Assembly: GCA_017940565.1 (NCBI GenBank)
Contig: JAGAYH010000037.1
Coordinates: forward strand, 1-48,402
Source of the DNA: Bacteroidaceae bacterium
GTDB taxonomy: Bacteria; Bacteroidota; Bacteroidia; Bacteroidales; Bacteroidaceae
DNA: 48,402 nucleotides
Direction: 5' to 3'
In this document: in pieces, positions 935 to 33,388 of the stretch
How the letters are laid out: each line of letters begins with the position of its first letter
How positions within the stretch are numbered: the stretch's first letter is position 1
Program-made: the position numbers and the translations under genes
The notes under the pieces: generated by a model
What the model saw: the letters and a program-made list of their open reading frames with translations, nothing else
What the model was told of the DNA's origin: nothing
Databases searched by the model: none

Positions 935-1765
935 CTAATCCGTTTCGTTCCAAAAATCCCAACTGGCCAAGGCTTGCAGGTGGAGCATCTCCAGTCCGTT
1001 CTTCACCGTAGCACCGCGCTCACGGCCACGCCGCATAAACAGTGTTTCCTCCGGGTTGTAAATCAAGTCGTAAAGCAGGTGATCACTGCCGATGGCTTCG
1101 TAGGGGATGGGCGGACAGGCACCGGTTTGGGGATGCATGCCCAATGGGGTACAATTGACGACGACAGTGTATCGGTTCATCACTCCGCATGTCACATCCG
1201 CATAGCCCCACACCCCTTCACGCGGGGTACGGCTCACCAGTTGCACGGCCAGCCCCAGACGTTGCAGACCGTAAACGACCGCCCGTGAAGCCCCACCCGT
1301 GCCCAGCACCAACGCCTGCCGGTGGTGGGGGCGCAGCAAGGGACGGATGGACTGCGTGAAGCCTATCACATCGGAATTATATCCCCTCAGCCGCCACGCT
1401 CGCGACGTTCCGGAGGAACTAACTCCGTTTTCGTGCGGCCTATGTCCGTTTTCGTCGCCACTATATCCGTTTTCCTGCTGTTCTCCCCCGACACGGATTA
1501 CCCGAACCACATTCACCGCCCCTATGGCCTTCGCTTCGTCGCTAAGAGCGTCGAGCCAGGGGATGATTTGCTGCTTGTAAGGTATCGTAACATTGAAGCC
1601 GCACAGGTCGGGATGGTCGCTGAGCACCTGCGGAAGTTCATCTATCGACGGCAGTTCAAAATTGAGATACTGCGCATCGATGCCATCGCGCCGGAATTTC
1701 TCCGTGAAGAAAGCGCGACTGAAGGAATGTCCCAAGGGACGGCCGATGAGTCCGTAGGTCTTCAT
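935..1765 (-). CDS. aroE: Shikimate dehydrogenase carrying an in-frame 21-bp-repeat insertion
   Basis: AroE reduces 3-dehydroshikimate to shikimate with NADPH in the chorismate pathway. Substrate-site residues are clear: GRPLGHSFS near the N-terminus, NVTIPYK with catalytic Lys64, and GYNSD with the catalytic Asp132. The cofactor loop GTGGAS lies at 155-160, followed by VSRTPR, and NCTPLGMHP lies at 204-212. At 276 aa it is about 25-30 residues longer than I expect for Bacteroidales AroE. The excess lies at residues 93-121, between AIGAVNVVRV and RLRGYNSD. This segment holds three copies of ENGxxxx encoded by a 21-bp DNA repeat that elsewhere in the window is intergenic. The frame is kept, so the enzyme may still work. 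The start is 9 bp after menG. Confidence 0.95.
   Translation of the reverse strand: MKTYGLIGRPLGHSFSRAFFTEKFRRDGIDAQYLNFELPSIDELPQVLSDHPDLCGFNVTIPYKQQIIPWLDALSDEAKAIGAVNVVRVIRVGGEQQENGYSGDENGHRPHENGVSSSGTSRAWRLRGYNSDVIGFTQSIRPLLRPHHRQALVLGTGGASRAVVYGLQRLGLAVQLVSRTPREGVWGYADVTCGVMNRYTVVVNCTPLGMHPQTGACPPIPYEAIGSDHLLYDLIYNPEETLFMRRGRERGATVKNGLEMLHLQALASWDFWNETD
1421..1483 (+). repeat. 21-bp-phased array, locus 1, inside aroE
   Basis: There are three units, with TCCGTTTTCs starting at 1424, 1445 and 1466, exactly 21 bp apart. They read TCCGTTTTCGTG, TCCGTTTTCGTC and TCCGTTTTCCTG, with TATG or CTATA just before units 2 and 3. On the minus strand the array encodes ENGYSGD, ENGHRPH and ENGVSSS in AroE. 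Because 21 is a multiple of three, gain or loss of a unit would keep the frame. This is the only coding copy seen. Confidence 0.85.
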
Positions 1766-1774
1766 TCTGTCGGT

Positions 1775-2512
1775 TTATTTACAGGCCAGATACATGGTAC
1801 TGAGCCCGAAGGTATAGCGTTTGAACATCACATGGCCGAAACCGGCCTTTTCGAGAATGCCTTTCATTACCTCGCCCTGGGGGAAAGCCTCCATGGTGCG
1901 CGGCAGATAAGTGTAGGCCCTGCGGTCTTTCGACAACAGGCGGCCCAAAAGGGGCATCGCCACGTGCGAATAGACCCAAAACAGCTGTTTCATAGGGAAG
2001 CGCCTCGGCGCAGTCAGTTCCAATATGACGGCGTGGCCTCCGGGACGCAGCACACGCCACATCTCGCGCAGGCCGCGGTCTAAATCGGGGAAATTGCGCA
2101 CACCGTAAGCCACCGTCACCGCGTCGAACGAGCCGTCATCGAAACTCAACGCCAGACAATCTTCTCTACGGAACTCGATGACATCACTTAAACCGGCCTT
2201 AGCCACCTTGTCACGTCCCACAGCCATCATACCCTCCGACACATCCGTGGCCACCACTCTCTGCGGCTGCAACCGCCGGCAAGCCAGCATGGCAAAGTCG
2301 CCCGTACCGGTAGCCACGTCGAGAATATCGGCGTGAGGCAAGGTCAACAGGACATCGATGGTCTTGCGGCGCCAGCCACGGTCGATACCAAACGACAGAA
2401 GATGATTCAGCAAGTCGTATTTGGGCGCGATGTGGTCGAACATGCGCTCCACCTGCTCACCTTTGGGGGCATTGGCGTCGTATGGTTTGATGTCTTCTTG
2501 GGCGTAACCCAT
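1775..2512 (-). CDS. menG: Demethylmenaquinone methyltransferase (UbiE/MenG family)
   Basis: This SAM-dependent enzyme methylates demethylmenaquinone to menaquinone, the last step of the quinone pathway used by anaerobic Bacteroidales. The protein is 245 aa, normal for the family. It starts with the family-typical [22 protein letters not shown] (residues 21-42). SAM motif I is [12 protein letters not shown] (63-74). Later motifs include [10 protein letters not shown] and [12 protein letters not shown]. The ATG overlaps the stop of the upstream lipoprotein gene by one base (TAATG), which suggests coupled translation. aroE follows after 9 bp. Confidence 0.95.
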
Positions 2513-3000
2513 TAATGCTGCTTTTTACGTATTTCTGATTTGTCTATCACCACATAAATGGTGTCAACCACGCGCCCCTGACGGCCTTCGCCACGGTCAC
2601 GGAATACATTGGCAAAGTTCTTGTCGAGCACCGTCACGTCGTCAACGAAGTAGTTGAAACGACCACGGTTCATAAACCAGTTCCAGCCCTGCACACGATG
2701 ATATTTAATCTTGATTTTCCACCCTTCCACCTGCGCCTGCTGCAGCAGGGTGATGAGCGAATCCTGATCATCGCGGTCGTTATCGAACGAGAACTCAAAG
2801 GGCTCGCCGGCAGTGTTCATGCCGGTTTGCGTCATATTGAGACGCCCGTCCCAAGAGTCCCAGACGAGCCCCGACTTGGCAAATTCGATGAGCGTGCCCA
2901 CCTTTTCGCCGTCGGAATAGTGCTCCTTGCAACCGCACAGCTGCAACATAAGGAACACCAACGAGGCCAGAAGGCTAAACTGTCGCAGTGTCTTCATCAT
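2512..3000 (-). CDS. Predicted lipoprotein of unknown function
   Basis: The product is a 162-aa protein with a hydrophobic N-terminal segment ending in the lipobox LQLCGC, so it is probably lipid-anchored. The mature part is soluble, with an acidic stretch [10 protein letters not shown] and an aromatic cluster [17 protein letters not shown] do not recognise a functional domain. The tandem ATGATG start overlaps the purC stop (AAATGATG), and the stop overlaps the menG start, so it is locked into the purC-menG operon. No function is proposed. Confidence 0.8.
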
Positions 3001-3944
3001 TTGGCAAGGTAGGCGGTTACATTATCACCGATACGGCTGGCCACATCGCCCACGGTTTCTTTCACAAACTTCTCGCCGGTGATGTGTTCGTAGAGCTCGA
3101 TGTAGCGGTTGGAGATGTTCTCCACGATTTCCGGCGTCATCTCAGGCACTTGCTGGCCGGACTTGCCTTGGAAGCCGTTGTCCATTAACCATTCGCGCAC
3201 AAATTCCTTGGAAAGCTGGCGTTGCGGTTCACCGGCTTTGAACTTTTCCTCATACCCCTCGCTGTAGAAATAACGGGAGCTGTCGGGCGTATGTATTTCG
3301 TCCATCAGGTAGATGGTTCCGTTGTGTTTGCCGAACTCGTACTTCGTGTCCACAAGGATAAGTCCGCGCTTGGCGGCAATCTCCGTGCCCCGCTTGAAGA
3401 GAGCCAGCGTATATTTTTCAAGAACTGCGTATTCTTCGGGGGTAGCCAGCCCTTGAGCCAGGATTTCTTCTTTCGAGATGTCGGCATCGTGCTCACCGAT
3501 TTCTGCTTTCGTCGTCGGCGTGATAATGGGTTCGGGGAACTTCTCGTTTTCACGCATGCCGTCGGGCAGTTTCACGCCACAGATTTCGCGGACGCCACTT
3601 TTGTAGGCACGCCAGGCACTGCCGCACAGGTAACCGCGGACGATCATCTCCACGGGAAAGCCTTCGCACAGCACGCCGGCCGTTACCATCGGGTCGGGTG
3701 TGGCCAGTTTCCAGTTGGGACAGATGTCGGTCGTGGCATCGAGGAACTTGGCGGCAATTTGGTTGAGCACTTGTCCCTTGTAGGGGATGCCTTCGGGCAA
3801 GATAACGTCAAAGGCCGAGATACGGTCGGTAGCCACCATCACCAACTGCTCGTCGTTGATGTTGTACACGTCACGCACCTTACCATGGTACACACTCTTT
3901 TGTCCGGGGAAATTAAAATCGGTTCTTACTAATGCTTTGTTCAT
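2997..3944 (-). CDS. purC: Phosphoribosylaminoimidazole-succinocarboxamide synthase
   Basis: PurC (SAICAR synthetase) joins CAIR and aspartate with ATP in purine synthesis. The N-terminus has the family signature [20 protein letters not shown], then [37 protein letters not shown], and [11 protein letters not shown] with the [12 protein letters not shown] segment. I chose the second ATG, at 3944 ([10 protein letters not shown], 315 aa), because it begins right before the conserved domain and lies 10 bp after the phoH stop. The first ATG at 3968 would overlap phoH and add eight residues. The other purine gene in the window, purL, is far away and separately transcribed. Confidence 0.95.
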
Positions 3945-3954
3945 AATGGGTCTA

Positions 3955-4938
3955 TTATTTTTGTTCATTTATTATCTTTTCTTCCTTCTGCTCCTCGCGC
4001 CGGCGCCTGGCCTCGGCCTCATAGGCTTCCACAATATGGGTCACCAGTTTATGGCGCACGATGTCCTTGCGCGTCAGTTCCACAAAGCCTATGCCGGGTA
4101 CGTCTTTGAGTATGCGGAGTGCCTCAATGAGCCCCGAGCGCTGTGAAGCGGGCAGGTCTATTTGGGTTCGGTCGCCCGTAACTATCATCTTAGTGTTCGT
4201 ACCCATGCGTGTGAGGAACATTTTAATCTGCGACGTCGTCGTATTCTGCGCTTCGTCGAGTATGACCACCGCGTCATTGAGCGTACGGCCGCGCATGAAG
4301 GCCAGAGGGGCTATCTGTATGACGCCCGTGTCCATATATTCCTTCAGTTTCACGGCCGGTATCATCTCTTCCAGCGCATCGTAGAGCGGTTGCAGGTAAG
4401 GGTCGATCTTTTCCTTCATGTCACCCGGCAGAAATCCCAGTTTCTCGCCGGCTTCCACAGCCGGACGGCTCAGGATGATGCGCCGCACCTCTTTGCGCTT
4501 CAGGGCGCGCACGGCCAGGGCGATGCCGGTGTAGGTCTTTCCCGTTCCAGCAGGGCCCACGGCGAATGTCAGGTCATGGGTCTCGAAGGTTTGCACCAGT
4601 TTCAGCTGGTTTTCGCTGCGGGCGCGCACGGGACGGCCTTGCGTACTGTAAACGATAACGTCCTCACCGCTCTCGTCCTTCGTTTTCTGCCCGCGCAGGA
4701 TGTCAAGGATGTCTTCCTCCGTCAGCGAATTGTATTTGGCACAGTGCATCACCAGTGCCTGCATCTTTTCGTCGAACACCTCCAGGTCGTCGGCCTCGCC
4801 GACGGCCTTCACCACATTGTCGCGGGCCATCAGACGCAGTTTCGGGAAGAGCGACTTCACCATACGCCAGTTCGACCCCTGAACGCCGTAGAACACCGCA
4901 GGGTCAACATCCTCGAGTATCAGATGTTTTTCTATCAT
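3955..4938 (-). CDS. phoH: PhoH-like ATPase (YbeZ family)
   Basis: This is a cytoplasmic P-loop ATPase of the PhoH/YbeZ family, linked in other bacteria to RNA and ribosome metabolism. Walker A is GPAGTGKT (residues 128-135) and Walker B is VVILDEAQN (about 224-232). [31 protein letters not shown] and [13 protein letters not shown] are family signatures. The 327-aa length is typical and the C-terminal end is highly charged. It is the first gene of the six-gene minus-strand operon. A -7-like element stands about 30 bp upstream of its start. The Pi transporter gene lies divergently, 288 bp away. Confidence 0.93.
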
Positions 4939-4967
4939 CTATCCGGTTGCGTTTCTTTCTATACCTG

Positions 4968-4975
4968 CAAAATTA
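4968..4975 (-). promoter_or_regulatory. phoH: Probable -7 element for the phoH operon
   Basis: Read on the minus strand this is TAATTTTG, matching the Bacteroidota -7 consensus TAnnTTTG. It lies 30 bp before the phoH ATG. No good TTG is found 19-21 bp further upstream, so the call rests on the -7 element alone. Confidence 0.5.
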
Positions 4976-5061
4976 CAATTTTCCTTGCACACGCGTGCAT
5001 ACGTGACCAATCATATTTCACTATTGACGGCAAAAAAATCGGAGCAACCGTTTTTACAGAA

Positions 5062-5121
5062 CTAAATCGGATTAAGAAGAGACCAAATCGGATATAGGAC
5101 AGACCAAAACGGATTTGGGCA
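5062..5121 (-). repeat. 21-bp-phased array, locus 2, between phoH and the Pi transporter
   Basis: In plus orientation the units are AAATCGGATTAAG, CCAAATCGGATATAGG and CCAAAACGGATTTGG, with CGGA at 5068, 5089 and 5110, exactly 21 bp apart. Read on the minus strand they become the same AAATCCG/TATATCCG unit as at the other loci. The array sits in the divergent gap, about 75 bp upstream of the likely -7 element of the Pi transporter. Confidence 0.8.
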
Positions 5122-5193
5122 TCAGAAACGGCGGCCCGGCATTTTTAACAGGATTGTAACGCCACCAAAGACGCCGGCCCGGTCATCTATGAG

Positions 5194-5201
5194 TAATTTT
5201 G
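5194..5201 (+). promoter_or_regulatory. Probable -7 element for the Na/Pi cotransporter
   Basis: TAATTTTG fits TAnnTTTG and lies 25 bp before the ATG at 5227. No convincing -33 TTG is seen at the right distance. Confidence 0.5.
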
Positions 5202-5226
5202 CATCCGGAAACAACTCTATAAAACT

Positions 5227-6891
5227 ATGATAGCAATCGCATTCAAACTCTTGGGGGCTTTGGCCCTGCTCATTTACGGAATGAAAATCATGAGCGAAGC
5301 CCTGCAGAAGATGGCGGGACCGCAGTTGCGCCACATTCTGGGGGCCATGACCGGCAACAGGCTCACGGGCATCCTCACCGGCACGCTCATCACCGCCACC
5401 GTGCAGTCGTCGTCGGCCACCACCGTGATGACCGTCTCTTTCGTAAACGCCGGTCTGCTCACTCTGGCGCAGGCCATCACCGTCATCATGGGCGCCAACA
5501 TCGGCACCACGCTCACGGCCTGGATCATGACCTTGGGCTACAAAATGGACCTCACCACCCTGGTGTTTCCGGCCTTTCTCATCGGTATCATTCTCATCTA
5601 CACCCGCCGCCACCGCTATACGGGTGACGCACTCTTCGGACTGGCCTTCATGTTCTTCGCCCTCGTCCTGCTCAGCGCCACCGGAGGGGAAATGGACTTG
5701 GAGCACAATCCCGATGTCGTTGCATTCTTCACCTCTTTCAACACTGACAGCCGTCTGACCATCCTTCTCTTCCTCGGCATAGGGACCTTGATTACCTGCA
5801 TCGTCCAGTCGTCGGCGGCGGTCATGGCCCTTACCATCATGTTGTGCTCCACCGGTGTGCTTCCCATCTACCTGGGCATTGCTCTCGTCATGGGCGAAAA
5901 CATCGGAACCACCGCCACCGCCAATTTGGCCGCTCTCGGTGCCAACACACAGGCCCGTCGGGCCGCCATGGCTCACATGGTATTCAACGTATTCGGTGTC
6001 ATATGGGTGCTCTGCCTGTTCTATCCCTTCGTGGACCTTGTGTGCCACCTCGTAGGCTATAAAGCCGGCAGCGGAGCGGGCAACCTGCCTGTGGTGCTGG
6101 CCATGTTCCACACATGCTTCAATGTAACCAACACGCTCATCCTCGTCTGGTTCATTCCACAGCTTGAACAGTTGGTGAAATGGATCGTCCGCCCGCGCCG
6201 ACAGGACGACGAAGACGAATTCCGCCTGAAACATATCCAGGGCGGCCTGCTCAAAACACCGGAAATTGCCGTTTTCGAAGCCCAAAAAGAGATTGTCCAC
6301 TTTGCCCAGCGCATCGGGCGCATGGTCAATATGGTTAAGGAGGCAACCGAGGAGACCGACGCCAACGAACTGGACAAACGCTTGGAACGCATAAAGAAAT
6401 ACGAGACAATATGCGACAACATGGAAATGGAAATTGCCCAATTCCTCGAACTAACCAGCAACGCCCACGTGAGCGACCGCACCAAGCAGAAAATCCGTTC
6501 CATGATGCGTGAAATCAGCGAAATGGAAAGTATCGGAGACAGCTGTTACAATATGTCGCTCACCCTGCGCCGCAAATGGGATCAGAAGGCATCGTTCAAT
6601 GAGAGCCAGCTGCGCGGCATCCACCTCATGCTCCACGAAGCGTCGGGCGCAGTGGCCGCCATGACCGAAATGCTGCAGAAGTCGCGCGACCAGGCGCTGT
6701 TCGAACAGGCCAACGCCACCGAAAAACGTATCAATCTCCTGCGCGACCGGATGAAACAACAGAATGCCGAAGACGTGGCCAACGGCATCTACAGCTATGT
6801 GTCGGGCACGCTCTACATGGATATCGTCTGCGAGTGTGAACGCCTGGCCGACTATGTTATGAACGTCGTTGAGGCCAGATATGGAAAATAA
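5227..6891 (+). CDS. Na/Pi cotransporter family protein with C-terminal PhoU domain
   Basis: This is an inner-membrane sodium-phosphate symporter of the NptA/YjbB type, 554 aa. Both inverted-repeat Na_Pi_cotrans signatures are present: TATVQSSSATTVMTVSFVNAG with QSSSA at residues 60-64, and CIVQSSAAVMALTIM near residues 190-205. About eight hydrophobic segments fill residues 1-330. The rest (about 340-550) is helical and hydrophilic like PhoU. It has heptad-rich stretches such as KRIGRMVNMVKEATEE and a cytoplasmic character. A two-component system follows after 32 bp, which suggests phosphate sensing and uptake as one unit. That link is inferred from order only. Confidence 0.92.
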   Translation: MIAIAFKLLGALALLIYGMKIMSEALQKMAGPQLRHILGAMTGNRLTGILTGTLITATVQSSSATTVMTVSFVNAGLLTLAQAITVIMGANIGTTLTAWIMTLGYKMDLTTLVFPAFLIGIILIYTRRHRYTGDALFGLAFMFFALVLLSATGGEMDLEHNPDVVAFFTSFNTDSRLTILLFLGIGTLITCIVQSSAAVMALTIMLCSTGVLPIYLGIALVMGENIGTTATANLAALGANTQARRAAMAHMVFNVFGVIWVLCLFYPFVDLVCHLVGYKAGSGAGNLPVVLAMFHTCFNVTNTLILVWFIPQLEQLVKWIVRPRRQDDEDEFRLKHIQGGLLKTPEIAVFEAQKEIVHFAQRIGRMVNMVKEATEETDANELDKRLERIKKYETICDNMEMEIAQFLELTSNAHVSDRTKQKIRSMMREISEMESIGDSCYNMSLTLRRKWDQKASFNESQLRGIHLMLHEASGAVAAMTEMLQKSRDQALFEQANATEKRINLLRDRMKQQNAEDVANGIYSYVSGTLYMDIVCECERLADYVMNVVEARYGK

Positions 6892-6923
6892 TTTGCAACT
6901 TTGCAGAAACAAATCATGGTTAT

Positions 6924-7613
6924 ATGACCCAACTGACGCCTAAAATCCTCGTCGTGGACGATGAACAGGACCTCTGCGACATACTTCAGTTCAACCTGAA
7001 GGCAGCCGGCTACGACGTTGTCACCGCCTTATCAGCCGAAGACGCCCTGCTGGCCCTTGTTCAGACAGGCAAGCCCGACTTAATCTTGCTTGACGTGATG
7101 CTGGGGGGCATGTCGGGCTTCGAACTGGCCCAACGCCTGCGTAATGATGAAGCCACAAAAGACTTGCCCGTCGTTTTCCTCACCGCAAAAGACACTGAAG
7201 ACGACACACTCAAGGGTTTCAGCCTGGGAGCCGACGATTACATCTCCAAACCGTTTTCCTTGCGTGAGGTCATGGCGCGCGTCGCCGCCGTACTGCGCCG
7301 CACAGCACCGGCTGCCGGCAGTGAAACAGTTTACCGCGGCATTGTACTCCGCCCGGCCAGCAAGACGGTGAGCGTGGACGGCAAGGATGTGGCTTTTACT
7401 AAGACTGAATTTGAACTGCTTCTCCTTCTGGCTCAACATCCCGGTGAGGTCTATTCGCGGCGCCAGCTCCTCGACAGCGTATGGCCCAAAGGAGTCTATG
7501 TGACCGAGCGCACCGTTGACGTCAACATCACCCGTATCCGCAAAAAGATAGCCCCGTACGATACGTGTCTCACCACCCGCCAAGGCTACGGCTATTATCT
7601 CGAACCATTATGA
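6924..7613 (+). CDS. OmpR/PhoB-family response regulator
   Basis: This 229-aa two-component regulator has a receiver domain at residues 6-122, with acidic pocket VDDEQD, phosphoacceptor Asp57 in LILLDVMLGG, FLTAKD and ADDYISKPFS. A winged-helix DNA-binding domain follows at about 133-229 (FTKTEFELLLLLAQHPGEVYSRRQLLDSVW, then ERTVDVNITRIRKKI and TTRQGYGYYL). Its stop overlaps the kinase start by four bases (ATGA), so the pair is almost certainly co-translated. The Pi transporter just upstream makes a PhoB-like role plausible but not proven. Confidence 0.95.
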   Translation: MTQLTPKILVVDDEQDLCDILQFNLKAAGYDVVTALSAEDALLALVQTGKPDLILLDVMLGGMSGFELAQRLRNDEATKDLPVVFLTAKDTEDDTLKGFSLGADDYISKPFSLREVMARVAAVLRRTAPAAGSETVYRGIVLRPASKTVSVDGKDVAFTKTEFELLLLLAQHPGEVYSRRQLLDSVWPKGVYVTERTVDVNITRIRKKIAPYDTCLTTRQGYGYYLEPL

Positions 7614-8545: not shown

Positions 8546-8576
8546 AACCGTTTTCATTAGACTCTTATTTTTTCCG

Positions 8577-8612
8577 AAACAGCGCCCCGTGTTATTCTGA
8601 GGCGCTGTTTTC
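8577..8612 (+). terminator. Intrinsic terminator after the histidine kinase
   Basis: AAACAGCGCC (8577-8586) pairs with GGCGCTGTTT (8601-8610) around a 14-nt loop and is followed by TTCAATTT. It lies 31 bp after the kinase stop. Confidence 0.7.
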
Positions 8613-8640
8613 AATTTGTATCTCCCCATTCGGGCCACCA

Positions 8641-8703
8641 ACTCCGTTTTTGTGCAGCCTATATCCGTTTTCGTCTTTTCCAAATCCGTTTTCGTAACCT
8701 CCG
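8641..8703 (+). repeat. 21-bp-phased array, locus 3
   Basis: TCCGTTTTTG, TCCGTTTTCG and TCCGTTTTCG start at 8643, 8664 and 8685, exactly 21 bp apart. CCTATA precedes the second unit and CCAAA the third. The array fills the gap between the kinase terminator and the promoter at 8769-8800. Confidence 0.85.
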
Positions 8704-8768
8704 GTCCGTAAATTTAGATTAGTAACTTTCGCCCGGCATAGCCAAAAAAGAAAAACGTGGTCTTTCAT

Positions 8769-8800
8769 TTTGGCTTTACTCTCGCTTATTCGTAACTTTG
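8769..8800 (+). promoter_or_regulatory. Bacteroidota-type promoter for the M15-like gene and truA
   Basis: TTTG (8769-8772), a 20-bp spacer and TAACTTTG (8793-8800) match the vegetative -33/-7 consensus well. The ATG is 8 bp beyond the -7 element, so the leader would be nearly absent. Confidence 0.75.
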
Positions 8801-8807
8801 CACTCCG

Positions 8808-16182: not shown

Positions 16183-16280
16183 GTTGCCTTATTTTTGAGA
16201 AAACATTCGGATTTTTTGAAACGCCTCATGCGCCGGCCGAAGTTTCGCGGACTGACCTGTTTTTCCAACTTATCTTACAC

Positions 16281-16358
16281 TAACTCCGTTTTCGTCCGGC
16301 CTATATCCGTTTTCGTCACGACTCACCCCGTTTTCGTTCACACGAAAACGGGGTTAGT
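16281..16358 (+). repeat. 21-bp-phased array, locus 4, ending in a perfect hairpin
   Basis: TCCGTTTTCG, TCCGTTTTCG and CCCGTTTTCG start at 16285, 16306 and 16327, exactly 21 bp apart. The third unit is followed by its own inverted copy. CCCCGTTTTCGT (16326-16337) and ACGAAAACGGGG (16342-16353) form a perfect 12-bp stem with loop TCAC. TAAC at the left end and GTTA at the right end are also inverted. The 349-bp gap before lpxD contains nothing else clear except a weak -7 element. Confidence 0.85.
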
Positions 16359-16465
16359 ATTACAAATTCTTGGTTTGTCATTCATAAGGGTCATAAAAAC
16401 AGAAAGAAAAACACGGTTTTTTGAAATTGTGTAGGAATAATAGAGTCTATGTCGGCATTTTTTCC

Positions 16466-21289: not shown

Positions 21290-21310
21290 ACAGAGCCTGC
21301 TTAGGAACAG

Positions 21311-21384
21311 GGCAAATCCTATTTATTAAAACACAAATCGGATTTGGAACACGCCAAATCCGATATAGGCCGACCCGAACAGGA
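21311..21384 (-). repeat. 21-bp-phased array, locus 6, with one inverted unit
   Basis: In plus orientation CAAATCCTATTT, CAAATCGGATTTGG, CAAATCCGATATAGG and a degenerate GAACAGGAC follow each other. The CAAATC cores start at 21313, 21334 and 21355, 21 bp apart. The second and third units are mirror images: ATCGGATTTGG (21337-21347) pairs with CCAAATCCGAT (21354-21364). The array lies in the gap between miaA and the PorE-like gene. It is the most degenerate of the six. Confidence 0.65.
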
Positions 21385-23927: not shown

Positions 23928-23967
23928 CTATAATTCCAGGACAATCATTCATCGCTTTCCAAACCAT

Positions 23968-24143: not shown

Positions 24144-24177
24144 CAGCCTAAAACAGAAATAAAGCAGTGCAGTTGTC

Positions 24178-26168: not shown

Positions 26169-26355
26169 TATTTTTTTGACATTTCCACTACAGAGGTCCG
26201 ACTTCGGGCGTCAAAAGCGGCGCTTCAAAAATTACAAACGGCGTTTCAAAATTCTGAAACGCCGTTTGTAATTTGCCCTATTTATGATACAATGGAAATC
26301 AGCAGTTTGCAAAACCAGCAGAAAAATGGTAAAAATTTTTGACAAAATAGTCTCT
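26163..26355 (+). repeat. Dispersed hairpin element, copy A
   Basis: About 190 bp resemble 38478-38667. Shared blocks are TTTTGACATTTCC, CACAGAG/AGnCCGA, GGCGTTTCAAAAT with its inverted arm, ATGnAAATCAGC, CAAAACC and ATGGTAAAAA. The core is a perfect 20-bp stem: 26229-26248 pairs with 26255-26274 around a 6-nt loop. It starts at the end of the small membrane gene and covers most of the 362-bp gap before purL. It could double as a terminator. Confidence 0.75.
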
Positions 26356-26492
26356 TACCCATTAGTGTCTCAACCATAACGGGAGCGGCTGTCGCTCCGC
26401 CAAAGAGGGCCAACAAAACAGACCACACAAGGATATGCCGTTTTCTTTAATAGAAATATGGTCAAAGCCATCGGAATGGCCCAAGTTTTTTG

Positions 26493-26500
26493 TATATTTG
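26493..26500 (+). promoter_or_regulatory. purL: Probable -7 element for purL
   Basis: TATATTTG fits TAnnTTTG and stands 30 bp before the purL ATG. No good -33 TTG is seen. I looked for a purine riboswitch in the leader and saw none. Confidence 0.55.
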
Positions 26501-26530
26501 CATCCAAATAAAGACAACTCCGAACAGAAC

Positions 26531-29500
26531 ATGATTCAATTCTTCAAAACGCCGGGTGGCAGCGTCATCGCCACCGAGTGTGATCACACACTGACAGACG
26601 ACAACCTGAAGGCCCTGTGCTGGCTTTTCGGCGAGGCTACGGTTGAAACGAGCGAAACCCTGGAAGGCTATTTCATCGGCCCGCGCCGCGAAATGGTGAC
26701 CCCCTGGAGCACCAACGCCGTGGAAATAACGCAGAACATGAACATCAACGGCCTCACACGCATTGAGGAGTATTTCCCCGTCAGCAGCGAGGAGGCCGAC
26801 TACGACCCCATGCTGCAACGCATGTACCGCGGGTTGGACCAGAACGTGTTCAAGACCGAGCGCAAGCCGGAACCTATCCGTTTTGTGGACAATATTGAGG
26901 AAGAAAACGACAAAGAAGGCCTGGCCCTCTCACCTGAAGAAATAGACTACCTGCACGGCGTGGAGAAGCAACTGGGCCGCCGGCTAACCGATTCGGAAGT
27001 GTTCGGCTTTGCCCAAATCAACTCGGAGCACTGCCGCCACAAGATATTCGGAGGCTCATTCATCATCGACGGCAAGGAAATGCCTTCGTCACTCTTTGCC
27101 ATGATTAAGAAGACCACGAAAGAAAATCCGCACCACATCATCTCGGCCTACAAGGACAATGTAGCCTTTGCCGAAGGCCCCGTAGTAGAGCAGTTCGCCC
27201 CGCAGGACCAAAGCACCAGCGACTTTTTTGTCATAAAGGACATCGAAAGCGTCATCTCCCTGAAAGCCGAAACGCACAATTTCCCCACCACCGTGGAACC
27301 CTTCAACGGAGCCTCAACGGGAACAGGCGGTGAAATACGCGACCGCATGGGCGGCGGCACCGGCTCGTGGCCCATCGCCGGCACAGCCGTCTACATGACG
27401 GCCTACCCCCGCCTCGACGGCGGCCGCGAATGGGAAGATATCCTGCCCGTGCGCCAATGGCTCTACCAGACACCCGAACAAATACTCATCAAAGCCTCCA
27501 ACGGCGCCAGCGACTTCGGCAACAAGTTCGGACAACCGCTCATTGCCGGCTCGGTGCTCACCTTCGAGCATCAGGAAAACGGAGAGAAATACGGCTACGA
27601 CAAAGTCATCATGCTTGCCGGCGGCGTAGGCTACGGCACCCGTCGCGACTGCCTGAAAAAAGAGCCCCGCAAGGGCAACAAGATAGTTGTGGTCGGCGGC
27701 GACAACTACCGCATCGGCCTCGGCGGAGGTAGCGTCTCGAGCGTGGACACCGGCAAATACTCCAGCGGCATTGAACTCAACGCCGTGCAACGCGCCAACC
27801 CCGAGATGCAAAAGCGCGCCTACAACCTCGTACGTGCCCTCTGCGAAGAAGACGTCAATCCCGTAGTCAGCATCCACGACCACGGTTCGGCCGGACACGT
27901 GAACTGCCTCTCGGAACTTGTCGAAGAATGCGGCGGACAGATTGATATGACAAAATTGCCCATAGGCGACCAGACGCTCTCGGCCAAGGAAATCATTGCT
28001 AACGAGAGCCAAGAGCGCATGGGCCTGCTCATTGACCAGGAACATATAGAACACGTGCGCCAGATTGCCGAGCGTGAACGCGCCCCGATGTACGTTGTGG
28101 GCGAAACAACAGGCGATGCCCACTTCTCTTTCGTTCAGGGCGACGGCGTGAAACCCTTCGATCTGGACGTGGCACAGATGTTTGGCCATTCGCCCAAGAC
28201 CGTCATGGTGGACGAAACCGTGACACGAAAATACGATGACGTCAGCTATGAGCCATCGAAACTGGCCGATTACCTGAACAACGTGCTTCAACTGGAAGCC
28301 GTGGCCTGCAAGGACTGGCTCACCAACAAGGTAGACCGCTCCGTAACGGGTAAGATTGCCCGCCAGCAGTGCCAAGGAGAATTGCAACTGCCGCTCAGCG
28401 ACTGCGGCGTGGTGGCTCTCGACTACCGCGGCAAACAAGGCATTGCCACAGCACTGGGACATGCCCCGCAGGCCGGACTGGCCGACCCGCAGGCCGGCTC
28501 CGTGCTCTCCGTAGCCGAAGCACTCACCAACATCGTCTGGGCACCGCTCAGCGAAGGTCTCGACAGCGTGTCCCTCTCCGCCAACTGGATGTGGCCCTGC
28601 CGCTCACAGAAAGGCGAAGATGCCCGACTCTACAGTGCCGTCGAAGCCTTGAGCGATTTCTGCTGCGCCCTCAAAATCAATGTGCCGACAGGCAAAGACT
28701 CACTGTCGCTGTCGCAACAATATCCCAACGGAGAGAAAATCATCAGTCCGGGCACCGTCATCGTCAGTGCCGGCGGACAGGTGAGCAACGTGCGCAAGGT
28801 AGTGTCCCCCGTATTGGTGAACAAGGCCAAATCGACGTTATATCACGTGGACTTCAGTTTCGACGAACTGCGTCTGGGCGGTTCCGCCTTTGCCCAAAGC
28901 CTCGGCAAGGTGGGCAGCGACGTTCCCACGGTGAAAGATCCGGAATACTTCCGTACCGCCTTCAACGCCGTGCAGCAATTAGTCAGGGAAGGTCTGCTGC
29001 TGGCCGGTCATGACATTTCCGCCGGCGGTCTCATTACCTGCCTGCTCGAAATGTGCTTCGCCAATGTGGACGGCGGCTTGAAGATCAATCTCGACGGTTT
29101 CAAGGAGGCTGACCTGGTCAAGACGCTCTTCGCTGAAAATCCCGGCATCGTCATCCAAGTGGCTGACAAGAATTGTAAACTGGTGGAAAAACAACTTGCC
29201 GAAGCCGGTGTATGCTTCATCAAATTGGGCCACCCTACCGATGAGCGCCACATTCTGGCCCAACGCGACGGCCAAACCTACCAGTTTGCCATTGATTATC
29301 TCCGCGACGTATGGTACCACACCAGCTACACGCTTGACACCAAGCAGAGCTTCAATGGTCAGGCCGACGAACGCTACACCAACTACAAGGAGCAACCCGT
29401 GGAATTTGCCTATAACAAAGACTTCACCGGCACGTTCAAGCAATATGGCATCACACCCGACCGCCGCAAGCCCAGTGGCGTGCGTGCTGCCATCATCCGT

Positions 29501-30244
29501 GAGAAAGGCACCAACGGCGAACGCGAAATGGCATACGTGCTCTATCTCGCCGGCTTCGACGTGAAGGACGTGATGATGACCGACCTCGTCAGCGGCCGCG
29601 AAACGCTCGACGACATTAATATGATTGTCTTCTGCGGCGGATTCTCCAACAGCGACACTCTGGGCAGCGCCAAGGGCTGGGCCGGAGCCTTCCTTTACAA
29701 CGAGAAAGCCAAAGCCGCCCTCGACCGCTTCTATGCCCGCCCCGACACCCTCTCACTCGGCGTGTGCAACGGTTGCCAGCTTATGGTGGAACTCGGTCTG
29801 CTCGACAAAGGCAACGGCCAGCCTGCCGACTATGCCCGCATGCTCCACAACAACAGCCATAAGTTCGAGAGCGCCTATCTCGGTCTTACTGTCCAAACCA
29901 ACCGCAGCGTCATGCTCGGTTCGCTGAGCGGTAACAAGCTCGGCGTGTGGGTGGCTCACGGCGAAGGCCACTTCCAGTTGCCGCGGCCTGAGAAAGACTA
30001 TAACATCGTGCTCAAATACACATACGACCAGTATCCCGGCAATCCCAACGGTTCCGACTACAGTGTTGCAGGCATTTGCAGCGCCGACGGCCGCCATCTG
30101 GCCATGATGCCCCACCCCGAACGCGCCTTCCTGCCATGGCAGTGCGCCACCTACCCCAAGGATCGTCTCAACGACGACGTGACCCCGTGGGTGGAAGCCT
30201 TTGTCAACGCCCGCCGCTGGGTGGAAGAGCACACCAAGAAATAA
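26531..30244 (+). CDS. purL: Phosphoribosylformylglycinamidine synthase, single-chain type
   Basis: PurL makes FGAM from FGAR, glutamine and ATP in purine synthesis. It is the long single-chain form, 1237 aa. I chose ATG 26531 (MIQFFKTPGG), because a longer in-frame opening would run through the -7 element. The catalytic part has the signatures QINSEHCRHKIF, LKAETHNFPTTVEPFNGA-STGTGGEIRD and VSIHDHGSAGHVNCLSELVE. The C-terminal glutaminase has CGGFSNSD, LGVCNGCQLMVELG with nucleophile Cys1079, AHGEGHF and MMPHPERAFLPWQ. It stands alone between two hairpin elements. Confidence 0.96.
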   Translation: MIQFFKTPGGSVIATECDHTLTDDNLKALCWLFGEATVETSETLEGYFIGPRREMVTPWSTNAVEITQNMNINGLTRIEEYFPVSSEEADYDPMLQRMYRGLDQNVFKTERKPEPIRFVDNIEEENDKEGLALSPEEIDYLHGVEKQLGRRLTDSEVFGFAQINSEHCRHKIFGGSFIIDGKEMPSSLFAMIKKTTKENPHHIISAYKDNVAFAEGPVVEQFAPQDQSTSDFFVIKDIESVISLKAETHNFPTTVEPFNGASTGTGGEIRDRMGGGTGSWPIAGTAVYMTAYPRLDGGREWEDILPVRQWLYQTPEQILIKASNGASDFGNKFGQPLIAGSVLTFEHQENGEKYGYDKVIMLAGGVGYGTRRDCLKKEPRKGNKIVVVGGDNYRIGLGGGSVSSVDTGKYSSGIELNAVQRANPEMQKRAYNLVRALCEEDVNPVVSIHDHGSAGHVNCLSELVEECGGQIDMTKLPIGDQTLSAKEIIANESQERMGLLIDQEHIEHVRQIAERERAPMYVVGETTGDAHFSFVQGDGVKPFDLDVAQMFGHSPKTVMVDETVTRKYDDVSYEPSKLADYLNNVLQLEAVACKDWLTNKVDRSVTGKIARQQCQGELQLPLSDCGVVALDYRGKQGIATALGHAPQAGLADPQAGSVLSVAEALTNIVWAPLSEGLDSVSLSANWMWPCRSQKGEDARLYSAVEALSDFCCALKINVPTGKDSLSLSQQYPNGEKIISPGTVIVSAGGQVSNVRKVVSPVLVNKAKSTLYHVDFSFDELRLGGSAFAQSLGKVGSDVPTVKDPEYFRTAFNAVQQLVREGLLLAGHDISAGGLITCLLEMCFANVDGGLKINLDGFKEADLVKTLFAENPGIVIQVADKNCKLVEKQLAEAGVCFIKLGHPTDERHILAQRDGQTYQFAIDYLRDVWYHTSYTLDTKQSFNGQADERYTNYKEQPVEFAYNKDFTGTFKQYGITPDRRKPSGVRAAIIREKGTNGEREMAYVLYLAGFDVKDVMMTDLVSGRETLDDINMIVFCGGFSNSDTLGSAKGWAGAFLYNEKAKAALDRFYARPDTLSLGVCNGCQLMVELGLLDKGNGQPADYARMLHNNSHKFESAYLGLTVQTNRSVMLGSLSGNKLGVWVAHGEGHFQLPRPEKDYNIVLKYTYDQYPGNPNGSDYSVAGICSADGRHLAMMPHPERAFLPWQCATYPKDRLNDDVTPWVEAFVNARRWVEEHTKK

Positions 30245-30250
30245 CGACAT

Positions 30251-30309
30251 CAAAAGCAGCGCCTCAAAAATTACAAGCGGCGCCTCGGAATACCGAGGCG
30301 CCGCTTTTG
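30251..30309 (+). repeat. Dispersed hairpin element, core-only copy C, likely terminator
   Basis: CATCAAAAGCAGCGCCTCAA then AAATTACAAGCGGCGCCTC follow the same order as in copy A. Its stem is a perfect 14 bp: AAGCGGCGCCTCGG (30275-30288) and CCGAGGCGCCGCTT (30293-30306), loop AATA, then TTGG. Compared with copy A both arms have changed in step, so pairing is kept. It lies 7 bp after purL and faces a convergent gene. Confidence 0.75.
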
Positions 30310-30407
30310 GTTCGTCTGAAATGGTTCAACCCGTACCTCACGGCACAGGCGAACGCATGTATAACATATATGAAAAAACCTTACTGTTTCAACTTTGGGG
30401 AATTGGG

Positions 30408-31088
30408 CTACTTCTGAAGCACTATTTTGCGCTGGTTGGCCTGCAGTTCGCGTACGGGAATCTTCATCAGTGTCTCTTGGCGAGCCCATCCCGTCGTGCC
30501 GGGCGCGGTTTCGGGGTGGCTGTCCTGGCCGATGTCCACCACGGTGCATGTCTTGGGCAGTGGCGGATAGATGCTCACCGAGTAGAAGAGCTGGCCCGCC
30601 TTGCCCTGCATCCAATAGCATACGTCGAGCGGTGCGCCCACATGGTCCTTCACGTAATACTTCTGCCCCGTGCGGCTGTCACGGATGAAGCTCGTGGCTG
30701 AATCGTAGAAATACATCTTATCCCACATCATTTGATGTATTTCAAAGAGGTAGGTCGCCTTTTTGGTACACAAGAGGATGATATCGTCCTTCCGGCCACG
30801 CGACGACCCGTCTTTGACCGTGCCAGCCGGCACCTCGAAGCAGGGCCATGTGTTGTAGTCCATCGGATCGTAGTTCTCCTGGCTCGAAATCAGTTTAGGT
30901 TCCGCGACGGCATCCTTCTTGAGTTTCTTGTCATACTGCAACGTCTGTATGCCGGCCGGCGACCAGCCGGCCGTCTCCTTTCCGTCGTTCGTATCAGATT
31001 GGGCGTAGCCTACTGTGAATATCATGCAGAGCATGAGAACCATTATCAGTTTTTCTGTCGTTTTCATAACGCGTTCTATTTTGTTCAT
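30408..31088 (-). CDS. Secreted protein of unknown function in the sigma-factor operon
   Basis: The product is 226 aa with a signal peptide (VLMLCMIFTVGYAQS). An ATG at 31067 would shorten the N-terminus by seven residues. The mature part is rich in Tyr and Trp with two Cys in CYWM and KTCTVVD. I recognise no domain. It begins 3 bp after the stop of the preceding gene and ends the sigma-factor operon. A role in the envelope is inferred from the signal only. Confidence 0.7.
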   Translation of the reverse strand: MNKIERVMKTTEKLIMVLMLCMIFTVGYAQSDTNDGKETAGWSPAGIQTLQYDKKLKKDAVAEPKLISSQENYDPMDYNTWPCFEVPAGTVKDGSSRGRKDDIILLCTKKATYLFEIHQMMWDKMYFYDSATSFIRDSRTGQKYYVKDHVGAPLDVCYWMQGKAGQLFYSVSIYPPLPKTCTVVDIGQDSHPETAPGTTGWARQETLMKIPVRELQANQRKIVLQK

Positions 31089-31091
31089 CGT

Positions 31092-32009
31092 TTATTTGTT
31101 CATTCTCGTTATCGTTTTGATGGCCAACTCGAGCGTAGCGAGGATTGAACTATCCTCACCGTCAAGTTCGCTCAAGTCTAAGAGACTTTTCAACCGTTGA
31201 CCGTAGGCCTTATACTGATCCGGATGGGTGGCAAAGCGCGTTCCCTGGCTGGCAAGTGCATACAAAACCCTCGACAGCGGTTCACGAAGTCCGGGATTCA
31301 TCGTATAAAGGGTTTCTATCTGGGTAAAAGCATCGATAAATTCCTCAATATTCTTTATCTTTGCGATGCCTTGGGACATGGCTATCAGATCATCATCATT
31401 CAGTTTAATTGACAACTCCTGTTTCTCCGCCTTTTGCCCCTTCCCGGGGATGCTGGCGTAGGTTATCACCACCTTGCCTTTATACTTCTTCTCCGTCACC
31501 GGTTGCTTAGTCAGTTTGCCTTTCACTTTCACCAGTTTGTACGATGCACCTGCCTCCTGCCACTCCAGGGCATAGGCATAGCGGTGGCTCTTGGTGCTGT
31601 CGTTGGCATCGAGAAAATTGATAATCGTGTAGTGGCTGGTGGCCGAGCGTCCCAGTTCCACTTTCTGGTTAGGGTCGTCGCCGATGAGGATGTCGTGCCA
31701 GTCCGTGCTGCCCGGCGTGTGCGTCTTTACAAAGTAACACAGCGATTCGTTCGAGCGTGCCGTCATGTAGTCTGCCATTTGTTGGAGTGTTGGCAGTTGA
31801 CTCTCATTGCAGGTAAAGTCCCACAGGTAACACATGGATTTCATCGGTGCGCCGGGTTGGTTCATGTCGCGTTCCTGTGTGGTGCTCTGCGAAACAGTGA
31901 ATCCTCCTGTCTGCAAGAACGACCGCAGGGCTGTTTCGATTTCTTGGTTTTGCGCTCCTGCCGTGAGGCTCACGACCAAGAGGAGCAGGGTTAGTTTGAT
32001 TGGTTTCAT
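31092..32009 (-). CDS. Secreted protein of unknown function in the sigma-factor operon
   Basis: The product is 305 aa from ATG 32009 (MKPIKLTLLLLVVSLTAGAQ), with a clean signal peptide. Earlier in-frame starts would overlap the gene before it. Residues 20-190 look beta-rich (YAYALEWQEAGASYKLVKVKG). The rest looks helical (IKNIEEFIDAFTQIETLY). No known family is recognised. It lies 19 bp after the putative anti-sigma gene. Confidence 0.7.
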   Translation of the reverse strand: MKPIKLTLLLLVVSLTAGAQNQEIETALRSFLQTGGFTVSQSTTQERDMNQPGAPMKSMCYLWDFTCNESQLPTLQQMADYMTARSNESLCYFVKTHTPGSTDWHDILIGDDPNQKVELGRSATSHYTIINFLDANDSTKSHRYAYALEWQEAGASYKLVKVKGKLTKQPVTEKKYKGKVVITYASIPGKGQKAEKQELSIKLNDDDLIAMSQGIAKIKNIEEFIDAFTQIETLYTMNPGLREPLSRVLYALASQGTRFATHPDQYKAYGQRLKSLLDLSELDGEDSSILATLELAIKTITRMNK

Positions 32010-32028
32010 TTTTATTATAATTAAAAGT

Positions 32029-32679
32029 TTAACTGTTCTGTACAATCACGGTGCCGGCCTGAGTCTTTGCCGGCTCTTTCGCCAGCAGGGCAATCACCAG
32101 TTCCATTTCGCGTTGCTGTTGCGCTTTTCTTGCGGCTGCCTGACGGCGATGCGTCTCCTTCTGCTGTTCCAATTCGGCCAGACAGAGCAGCAACCGTTCG
32201 CGGTCGGCCTCAGACAGGTCTGCCAGCAGTTCTTCGGTCGTGGACAGCGCCGGAGTCATGACCTCTTCTGCAGTTTCGGGTGTTTCGGCCTCTTCTGCAG
32301 GCTCCGTTTCCACCGGGGGCACCGGTTTCTGCTTTATAACCCTGCGGCTGGGTTTCGCGGACGGCTCGCTTTGGGCCATCAGTGAGGGCTGCGGAGCGGG
32401 CTCGGCCGCTGGTGTTGCCTGTGCCGTCACGACGGGCGCTTGGGGAGCGACAGCCGTTTCAACCGGGTGGGTCTGCCACTGCTTCACACCTACAAACACG
32501 GCCGTCAGCATGGCCGCGGCGGCCAGCAGGCGCATTCCTATTATATAAGGTCTGCGGCGGCGACGCAGCCGGGCGTCGAATTCGGCGGCTTTCGCCTCGT
32601 CGGTCCAGGCGGCCGTGTCTTCCTCGGGGAAGGCGAGGCGGTCCAGCCAGTCGTCTTGAACGTTTTGGTCTTGTCTCAT
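32029..32679 (-). CDS. Single-pass membrane protein, putative anti-sigma factor
   Basis: The product is 216 aa from ATG 32679; a TTG at 32694 would overlap the sigma stop. The N-terminus is soluble and acidic (DDWLDRLAFPEEDTAAWTDEA), then comes the basic run RLRRRRRP and one membrane helix (MRLLAAAAMLTAVFVGVKQW). The outer part is Pro/Ala/Glu-rich, then a helix with coiled-coil character (LLADLSEADRERLLLCLAELEQQKETHRRQ). The layout and its place right after an ECF sigma gene suggest an anti-sigma factor. No FecR or zinc anti-sigma domain is visible. Confidence 0.65.
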   Translation of the reverse strand: MRQDQNVQDDWLDRLAFPEEDTAAWTDEAKAAEFDARLRRRRRPYIIGMRLLAAAAMLTAVFVGVKQWQTHPVETAVAPQAPVVTAQATPAAEPAPQPSLMAQSEPSAKPSRRVIKQKPVPPVETEPAEEAETPETAEEVMTPALSTTEELLADLSEADRERLLLCLAELEQQKETHRRQAAARKAQQQREMELVIALLAKEPAKTQAGTVIVQNS

Positions 32680-32690
32680 TTTGTTTCCTG

Positions 32691-33182
32691 TCAAATATCT
32701 TGGTTCATTGCTTTTCGCAGCCGTGCCTTCGCTTCTGAAATCATGGCGCTCACGCTGCGTGAGGGGATGCCGGTGAGTCGGCTTATCTCGTCGGTCTGCA
32801 ACCCGTCCTCATGGCGCATGCGCAGCAGCAGGCGGTGGCGCTCGGGCAGTTGCTTTATCAGTTGGGTGAGGCGTTGCTCCGTCTCGCGGGCTTCCATCCG
32901 CCCGAGGGGCGTGTCGCTGTGGAGCGGTTCCTCAATGTCGTTCAGGCCCTGCGGCGCTTCCTGCTGCCGGCGCCAGAGGTCGATGCACACGTTCTTGGCC
33001 ACCCGCGTGGCATAGGCTTCCAGACCGTCCGTAGGCAGCGCGTCGCGCAGCCGCCAGAGGCGGAGCAGCGTGTCTTGAGCGGCGTCCTCGGCGTCTTCGC
33101 GGCTGCCGAAGAAGGTTCGGGCCAACTGCTGAAACCGACGACGCATGGGGAGGACCAATTCTACGAACGTTTCTTGTGTCAT
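32691..33182 (-). CDS. ECF-type RNA polymerase sigma factor
   Basis: The product is 163 aa. Region 2 is at about 8-78 (MRRRFQQLARTFFGSREDAEDAAQDTLLRLW, then YATRVAKNVCIDLWRR). Region 4 is at about 102-155 (LIKQLPERHRLLLRMRHEDGLQTDEISRLTGIPSRSVSAMISEAKARLRK), including the helix-turn-helix. ECF factors redirect RNA polymerase to a small regulon and are normally held by a membrane anti-sigma factor. The next gene fits that role. The gene faces away from GH127, with a 304-bp gap that holds array locus 5. Confidence 0.93.
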   Translation of the reverse strand: MTQETFVELVLPMRRRFQQLARTFFGSREDAEDAAQDTLLRLWRLRDALPTDGLEAYATRVAKNVCIDLWRRQQEAPQGLNDIEEPLHSDTPLGRMEARETEQRLTQLIKQLPERHRLLLRMRHEDGLQTDEISRLTGIPSRSVSAMISEAKARLRKAMNQDI

Positions 33183-33306
33183 CTCACTCTTATAACGGAC
33201 AAACGGGACAATGTTAAGTACAAAATTGGAGATTTTTTCCGAAATAACGTTTTTTTTTCTTTACAATGGGTAATAAGGGACTGGTGGCGCCATGTCGGGA
33301 AGTCTT

Positions 33307-33388
33307 TATCCGTTTTCGTCGCGCCTAAATGCGATATAGGAAAAACTAAATCCGTTTTCGTTGCGCCTATATGCGTTTTCGTCGCGGT
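33307..33388 (+). repeat. 21-bp-phased array, locus 5, four units
   Basis: Units start at 33309 (TCCGTTTTCG), 33330 (TGCGATATAGG), 33351 (TCCGTTTTCG) and 33372 (TGCGTTTTCG), each exactly 21 bp apart. TCGCGCCTA or TTGCGCCTA links the units. The second unit carries the ATATAGG of the reverse orientation. It lies in the divergent gap between the sigma gene and GH127, about 40 bp upstream of the GH127 promoter. Confidence 0.85.

Follow-up and report, generated by a model that had tools for sequence, protein, structure and literature searches.

Among the described systems that come closest to the subject of this study, ArgR operators consist of ARG-box pairs bound by a hexamer, with dyads whose centres are 21 bp apart and which share one helix face, and lambda-type triple operators (OR1-3) place three dyads in a row near divergent promoters. 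Here we describe arrays of short DNA dyads that recur at an exact 21-bp step between the genes of a Bacteroidaceae bacterium (assembly GCA_017940565.1). The starting point was contig JAGAYH010000037.1, positions 1 to 48,402 of the forward strand, which as a whole is called the window below; it is contig C10 of its own genome, G000 (1.79 Mb, 63% complete). Most counts come from a 446-kb sample of G000, comprising six contigs or contig parts with the window included, in which genes were called by codon usage (81–91% coding in samples of at least 80 kb).

The arrays share with ArgR operators the 21-bp centre-to-centre spacing of dyads, and with lambda OR1-3 the row of three dyads near divergent promoters. 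They differ from the former in their hundreds of sites, their odd C/G centre and their species-specific cores, and from the latter in being genome-wide, exactly spaced and present in convergent gaps too. Variable number tandem repeats (VNTR) and minisatellites carry near-identical units head to tail, whereas the array units have mixed orientation, and the closest pair of adjacent 21-mers in an array has a median of 6 differences in 21 positions. Clustered regularly interspaced short palindromic repeats (CRISPR) are characterized, in the cited passage, by repeats of 24–48 bp with regular spacers at one or few loci (PMC3733652). The initial annotation of the window had set the arrays apart from CRISPR, and our analysis agrees, since they are 13–15 bp dyads with 6–8 bp between them in 87 of 152 gaps. 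Repetitive extragenic palindromic (REP) elements are presented in the cited passages as species-specific extragenic palindromes in many copies (PMC3733652, PMC3116915). The arrays resemble them, as well as bacterial interspersed mosaic elements (BIME) and REP doublets forming hairpins (REPIN), in being species-specific, multi-copy and extragenic, but are distinguished by the exact lattice, the mixture of tandem and inverted order, the frequent position in divergent gaps and the fact that the equivalent gap of a sister species is occupied with other letters.

A 21-bp lattice of dyads between genes

The core TCCGTTTTCGT was found in pairs (TCCGTTTTCGT-N9..11-TCCGTTTTCGT) 41 times in G000, every time with N10, and the same pattern read backward gave no match; a relaxed dyad pattern (at most three mismatches) occurred at 204 places, its control at none. 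The sample holds 117 cores with at most one mismatch, and all pairs within 150 bp lie on a perfect 21-bp lattice. Same-strand pairs are 21, 42 or 63 bp apart (35, 20 and 3 pairs) and at no other distance; inverted pairs with facing 3' ends are 15, 36 or 57 apart (3, 1 and 1; five pairs at 15+21k), and those with facing 5' ends 27 or 48 apart (5 and 3; eight pairs at 27+21k). These distances fit a single 21-bp cell centred on the third core base, with one lattice common to both orientations; flipped copies stay on the lattice because each unit is a pseudo-palindrome. The fixed step of a dispersed family and the placement of all units on one helix face, both proposed in the initial annotation, thus hold for all core pairs of the sample and in every orientation. 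That annotation had also named what would speak against it, namely no phased excess in a profile search or a breakdown of the step; the phased excess was present in the genome, and the step was intact in the sample.

Two cell types were distinguished with profiles trained on G000, type A (CTAAATCCGTTTTCG) and type B (GAAACGSCGTTTC). The type A cell is the pseudo-palindrome CTAAATC C GTTTTCG, with half-sites CTAAATC and CGAAAAC, and fully symmetric cells, e.g., CTAAATCSGATTTAG, are interspersed among the type A cells. Half-sites such as CTAAATC, CGAAAAC and TGAAACG flank a single C/G centre, which is among the most conserved positions, and about six free bases lie between one conserved part and the next. 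With the type profiles, type A arrays have three cells in 35 cases, two in 11 and four in 5, type B arrays three in 21, two in 15 and four in 2, and 11 lone cells of each type were found. The number of cells depends on the threshold: with a more permissive one, which 1% of random cells drawn from the genome as a whole and not just from its gaps passed, 85 arrays had three cells in 42 cases, four in 38, two in 3 and five in 2, in keeping with the three or four units first reported, and at lattice positions two cells beyond the arrays the pass rate fell to 4–6%. Their orientation shows little preference, with 47 facing towards the gene and 36 facing away from it, as expected because the sites are dyads.

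In the window itself, the core search (at most two mismatches) confirmed arrays at five of the six loci listed in the initial annotation, with matches at 1424/1445/1466, 8643/8664/8685, 16285/16306/16327, 33309/33351/33372 and, in reverse, 5113/5092/5071. Some details required correction: 33330 has at least three mismatches to TCCGTTTTCGT and is only a worn lattice position, an additional inverted cell at 16352 shares the lattice of 16285/16306/16327, and the sixth locus, 21309–21371, is a real three-cell array, its lattice score being 20.9 where the highest of 40 shuffles was -6.5. Five of the six were said to lie in promoter-bearing gaps; five are indeed in gaps, and the remaining one (1416–1478) lies within aroE. 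An Rfam scan of the window at gathering thresholds gave no match. The arrays of the window are as follows.

1416–1478, plus strand: type A array of three cells inside the minus-strand aroE (core matches, cell profile, sister comparison)
935–1765, minus strand: aroE-like shikimate dehydrogenase gene bearing this array (PF08501, E 4e-22)
5059–5121, minus strand: type A array of three cells in the divergent gap between phoH-like and Na/Pi cotransporter-like genes
8635–8697, plus strand: type A array of three cells between genes for a histidine kinase and a DUF5715 protein
16277–16360, plus strand: type A array of four cells (+++-) upstream of an lpxD-like gene
21309–21371, plus strand: degenerate type A array of three cells (the "worn copy") upstream of a gene for an OmpA-domain protein
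33301–33384, plus strand: type A array of four lattice positions, the second cell worn, in the divergent gap between sigma-70-family factor and GH127 genes
26210–26272, no strand assigned: type B array of three cells in a codirectional gap
30249–30311, no strand assigned: type B array of three cells in a convergent gap
38525–38587, no strand assigned: type B array of two strong cells (38546–38587) and a weaker third on the lattice

A repeat scan confined to the gaps of the sample found a lag of 21 bp in 72 of 169 gaps (3.8 in shuffled sequence) and any other lag from 13 to 32 in 0–7. Thirty-nine of the 72 contain type A; most of the other 33 are type B by eye, with the same lattice. The pooled three-cell lattice score exceeded all 40 shuffles of the same gap in 87 of the 152 gaps of at least 80 bp, five of them previously uncalled, and 21 was the best of the periods 17–25 in 97 of the 152 (15 of 70 among uncalled gaps). 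Arrays of at least two cells number 51 for type A (30 in codirectional, 15 in divergent and 3 in convergent gaps, 2 coding, 1 at an edge) and 38 for type B (16 codirectional, 6 divergent, 15 convergent, 1 edge). A gap nearly always has a single array (type A: 48 arrays in 48 gaps; type B: 37 in 36), and the two types are almost mutually exclusive by gap in G000: 46 gaps have only A, 34 only B and two have both, and in these two the cells of both types fall on a common lattice. Seed pairs of type B in G000 are likewise 21 or 42 bp apart. By gap class, occupancy in G000 is 45/84 codirectional, 22/37 divergent and 17/30 convergent.

Two further arrays of G000 stand apart from this pattern. A three-cell array at C38:28505–28567 is the second one inside a gene, within a long predicted open reading frame (27060–30311, minus strand), and C15:97339 holds another kind of 21-bp array, made of AAATAAAGCTTTATTT-like palindromes.

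Conservation of position and change of letters among relatives

The closest comparison is with a sister species of the same genus, G015 (68% complete), one genome per species. Reciprocal best matches gave 91 genes with a median protein identity of 84% and 32 comparable gaps. Using a lattice score cut of 20, arrays were called in both species in 13 gaps, in G000 only in 2, in G015 only in 2 and in neither in 15; where both gaps were at least 80 bp (23 pairs), the numbers were 13, 2, 2 and 6. One of the 13 doubly occupied gaps, that of lpxD, is doubtful, since its G015 match is a hairpin at another place in the gap. The cell type differs by eye in 9 of the 13: the gap at C28:2964 has four CTAACTCCGTTTTCG-type cells in one sister and three CGAAGTGGGACGTTG-type cells in the other, and that at C28:36597 has type A in one and CGAAGTCGGACTTC in the other. 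A-like cells occur in both sisters at three gaps (C28:33818, 102121 and 109681), with the letters nearly kept at 109681. On alignment, several gap pairs (C28:30959, 33818, 109681, 2964 and 68763) show a common 21-bp register with few alignment gaps, where the aligner is itself drawn to the lattice, and five others (C28 36597, 7584, 15907, 74609 and 32460) are out of register or not alignable. Occupancy in G015 is 25/72 codirectional, 14/22 divergent and 9/15 convergent, and by the G000-trained profiles its arrays are B-like in 18 of 25, 10 of 14 and 9 of 9, respectively. Type B seed pairs in G015 are 21, 42, 63 or 84 bp apart, apart from two off-lattice pairs (47 and 68).

The array inside aroE is free of the aligner's pull to the lattice, because the gene has 831 bp in both sisters; the best three-cell lattice begins at the identical base, although the third cell is weak in G015. 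Identity between the sisters is 51% in the array against 75% and 73% in its flanks, and the step of 21 bp, equal to seven codons, maintains the reading frame. In 15 other congeners aroE matches as two pieces around an insert, and therefore these lack the array insert; G003 and G013 gave no match. From these comparisons of sequence, the aroE array appears to be older than the split of the sisters, with its lattice kept while the letters changed. Separately, contig C210 of G015 (L037) carries the array of window positions 33301–33384 together with a 99% identical start of the GH127 gene, despite about 84% protein identity elsewhere, which reflects either contamination of the G015 assembly or recent transfer.

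The exact core pair at a 21-bp step was found in 0 of 100 relatives (G093 has one pair at another spacing), and the relaxed dyad pattern, searched over 200 genomes, gave 204 places in G000, 5 in G015 and 1 in G011, with the backward control matching one genome, once. A search of a collection of 84,980 species returned the core pair at this step in three stretches (Actinobacteria, Treponema and Phocaeicola), which showed no CTAA-type context by eye and were judged chance or unrelated. The lattice is more widespread than the letters. In a pool of 463 gaps from 16 of 18 congeners (G000 excluded, two genomes having no usable gaps), a lag of 21 was found in 74 gaps, 31 of them from G015, and a lag of 22 in 28, against 7–18 for other lags; in 125 gaps from 17 of 20 genomes of other genera, the corresponding numbers were 11, 14 and 0–9. 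Some of these 21/22-lag matches lie in low-complexity sequence and are surely due to chance, and G010 had no lag-21 array in 27 gaps. Among the cores, G014 has AACTCSSSGAGTT at 21 and AAGGCGYAAAA at 22, and G021 has AACTAACGTTAGTT at 22; in these few families, odd palindromes seem to pair with a 21-bp and even ones with a 22-bp lattice. Among the entries listed from an open-licence literature library, titles and abstract openings gave no account of such 21/22-bp dyad arrays. Overall, the observation in the initial annotation was correct but too modest; it foresaw neither the dyad nature of the units nor type B in convergent gaps nor the 21/22-bp arrays with other cores in congeners and other genera.

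Two observations in congeners concern other repeat forms: L153:10606–10830 (G011, contig C18) has two distinct three-cell 21-bp arrays near each other (CGAGAACGGAYTTAG and ACGCGCACGCGATTAG), and contig C17 of G008, among others, carries a larger multi-dyad repeated element (AACAAGGTCGGATGTAGTTTAAACTAGGTCGGACTTAGTTT...) in long gaps.

Arrays and A/T tracts in phase with the -7 box

The -7 box TAnnTTTG is reported from Bacteroides fragilis and Flavobacterium johnsoniae in the cited part of PMC7366714. Boxes of this kind fit the Bacteroidales affiliation assumed in the initial annotation. In the window, three such boxes belong to arrays in gaps.

5194–5201, plus strand: -7 box TAATTTTG, with the closest cell centre of array 5059–5121 at 83 bp
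4968–4975, minus strand: -7 box TAATTTTG, on the opposite side of this divergent gap, with the closest cell centre at 94 bp
8793–8800, plus strand: -7 box TAACTTTG, with the closest cell centre of array 8635–8697 at 106 bp

The arrays avoid the core promoter: overlap with the region from -35 to the start codon was below random placement for both type A (46 promoter sides: 6 observed, 16.1 expected) and type B (23 sides: 1 observed, 6.2 expected). The spacing between the -7 box and the closest cell centre has a period of 10.5 bp, the best of 8–14, in both species (G000: n = 65, R = 0.44, p = 4e-6, phase 0.2; G015: n = 33, R = 0.40, p = 0.005, phase 0.5), where a single array in a divergent gap is counted for two promoters. 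The G000 value was reached by random placement in 0 of 2000 trials, and the signal persisted in the non-orthologous gaps of G015 (n = 23, R = 0.42, p = 0.018, phase 0.3). For type A alone, R was 0.54 in G000 (n = 46) and 0.56 in G015 (n = 9, p = 0.057). The start codon gave lower values as the reference point (R = 0.19, p = 0.056 in G000; R = 0.11 in G015), as did a random point (R = 0.03) and a shuffled motif (n = 11, R = 0.20); the strand and reverse-motif controls for the box had 1–5 sites only and were uninformative. Twenty fresh arrays, mostly from loci chosen for type A matches, provided 11 promoter sides, which had a phase of 0.1 and R = 0.59 (V-test p = 0.003, Rayleigh p = 0.02).

The A/T tracts that lie upstream of the -7 box, no more than 110 bp from it and counted with several tracts per promoter, are phased to it as well, in gaps with arrays (G000: n = 321, R = 0.36; G015: n = 215, R = 0.35) and in other gaps (n = 182, R = 0.34; n = 161, R = 0.28). 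This 10.5-bp phase to TAnnTTTG, nearly the same with or without arrays, constitutes a promoter-wide, curved-DNA-like signature in G000 and G015. The arrays' own AAA/TTT, at ±4 from the dyad centre, share the phase of the promoter tracts. Position that depends on helical phase, as expected of a cis-acting promoter site, was thus found for the arrays, but also for the A/T tracts. As the tracts of array-free promoters are phased about as strongly, the phasing is no proof of a dedicated regulator; it shows that the arrays are built into promoter architecture and not that such a regulator acts from them.

Proposed operator platforms and the competing explanations

We propose, with a probability of roughly 0.5, that the arrays are putative operator platforms for a cooperative DNA-binding protein. 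The dyads, the conserved C/G centre, the fixed centre spacing and the species-specific cores suggest a protein reading DNA. On each platform, usually with three or four pseudo-palindromic sites whose centres are exactly 21 bp apart, dimers of one DNA-binding protein, or one higher oligomer, would sit side by side on one helix face, as part of a global system, nucleoid-like or regulator-like, that has one platform in more than half of the longer gaps. Where a gap contains a promoter, the platform lies upstream of the promoter core and in helical register both with the -7 box and with the phased A/T tracts; it would probably act on the upstream DNA by wrapping or bending it, or contact RNA polymerase from one fixed side. 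Type B arrays in convergent gaps probably have a role at transcript ends or in local topology. Selection would keep the geometry, while the letters change between species as the preference of the reader shifts. Such a protein, its cooperative binding, selection and an effect on transcription are what we infer from the lattice, the dyads, their occupancy of gaps, the A/B preference of G000, same-gap conservation and phasing.

ArgR offers a structural analogue. In the ARG-box layout as generally known, TGAA occupies half-site position -7 to -4, as in type B, and the three dyads of an array would provide six half-sites, matching the number of DNA-binding domains of the hexamer. PF01316 (ArgR) has one match in 18 of 19 genomes of the genus, including G000 and G015. 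However, AQPTLSRDL, which we take to be the recognition helix, is identical in G014, G003 and G006; G014 has very different cores, and among the three only this genome has known arrays. ArgR is hence probably a structural analogue rather than the likely reader.

Several observations weigh against operator platforms. No reader protein was found. Occupancy in G000 hardly varies by gap class, unlike that of an ordinary promoter regulator; 15 B arrays lie in convergent gaps, where promoters are not expected; and the A/B split by gap class is limited to G000, B-like arrays being the majority in every class of G015. Phasing in the promoter gaps of type B is not significant (G000: n = 19, R = 0.31, p = 0.16; G015: n = 24, R = 0.34, p = 0.058), nor is that in other congeners and genera, where few arrays have a defined centre (n = 19, R = 0.28, p = 0.23). 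Array phasing may follow from the arrays' own AAA/TTT, and A/T tracts around convergent-gap arrays are unphased (n = 112, R = 0.12; n = 35, R = 0.06). Finally, in 4 of 51 type A arrays, but in 0 of 38 of type B, adjacent 21-mers match completely, even in their free bases; tandem duplication therefore does happen, and these four arrays were recently duplicated, most of the others not.

The initial annotation had left the choice between cooperative protein binding and a mobile minisatellite. A plain minisatellite is less favoured than a DNA-binding role, given that the same gaps are occupied in the sister with changed letters, that the arrays keep clear of the promoter core and that they are in helical phase with the -7 box, although the tandem duplications still lend something to the minisatellite. 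The related possibility, that selfish or neutral extragenic palindromes (REP/BIME-like or slippage minisatellite) spread into tolerated gaps and are homogenised within species, is unlikely in our estimation, although several observations can be read this way: species-specific cores with no exact pair among 100 relatives, intergenic bias, palindromes, several families per genome, the identical neighbouring units, an aroE insert that is a multiple of seven codons, and occupancy nearly independent of gap class. Such spreading fits poorly with a fixed lattice of mostly three to four cells and nearly always a single array per gap, with the occupation of equivalent gaps in the sister, with an aroE lattice in register and with a non-random helical position. 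Mobility by a REP-associated tyrosine transposase (RAYT) is likewise disfavoured. The domain PF01797 (Y1_Tnp/RAYT) was found neither in G000 (63% complete) nor in G015 (68%) nor in the near-complete, array-bearing G008; it occurs in 4 of 19 genomes of the genus, with no clear link to arrays. As to REP-type tags, CGTC ends 33 of 117 type A cores, GTAG/CTAC lies in or beside 7 of 117, and the type B profile has neither GTAG nor CGTC, which falls short of a REP tag.

A second alternative, putative curvature by phased A/T tracts, holds that the arrays matter only through an AAA/TTT about once per turn that extends the curved DNA upstream of promoters. Phased A-tracts do share the 10.5-bp phase to the -7 box with the arrays, at promoters with and without them, and the tracts of the arrays are in phase. 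Nevertheless, the arrays are sequence-specific dyads, and the central C/G is among their best-conserved positions; curvature requires neither dyad symmetry nor A/B types nor species-specific cores, and the surroundings of convergent-gap arrays are unphased, so that we regard this explanation as quite improbable.

The least probable of the three is that the arrays, mainly type B, fold as RNA hairpins that end or protect transcripts: 15 of 38 type B arrays lie in convergent gaps and neighbouring B cells are complementary, but a hairpin RNA fits type B and not the asymmetric, often tandem type A cells, which are common in divergent gaps, and a conserved intrinsic terminator without an array was found at C28:112007. 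Terminator-like hairpins, in a scan that cannot tell array palindromes from terminators, occurred in convergent gaps with versus without an array at 12/17 versus 7/13 (G000) and 9/9 versus 4/6 (G015), and in codirectional gaps at 15/45 versus 6/39 and 9/25 versus 8/47; these counts do not support the arrays as a replacement for intrinsic terminators.

A wider and more tentative view, which is possible though we hold it with distinctly less confidence, is that of a lineage-wide intergenic punctuation, in which a nucleoid-like protein would read geometry, with dyads every 21 bp (odd palindromes) or 22 bp (even palindromes), and the letters of hundreds of sites would be rewritten in place between species. 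Fast-evolving centromeres and PRDM9-type recognition are parallels for such rewriting. If such a reading holds, the gaps between genes are marked by arrays at a density of about one per 5 kb (87 in the 446-kb sample), and the letters would have turned over between sisters with a median protein identity of 84% while gap and lattice stayed. This would be a natural experiment on a global DNA-binding protein that switches specificity without breaking its network, and would represent a genome-wide architectural code for a large, mostly uncultured bacterial lineage.

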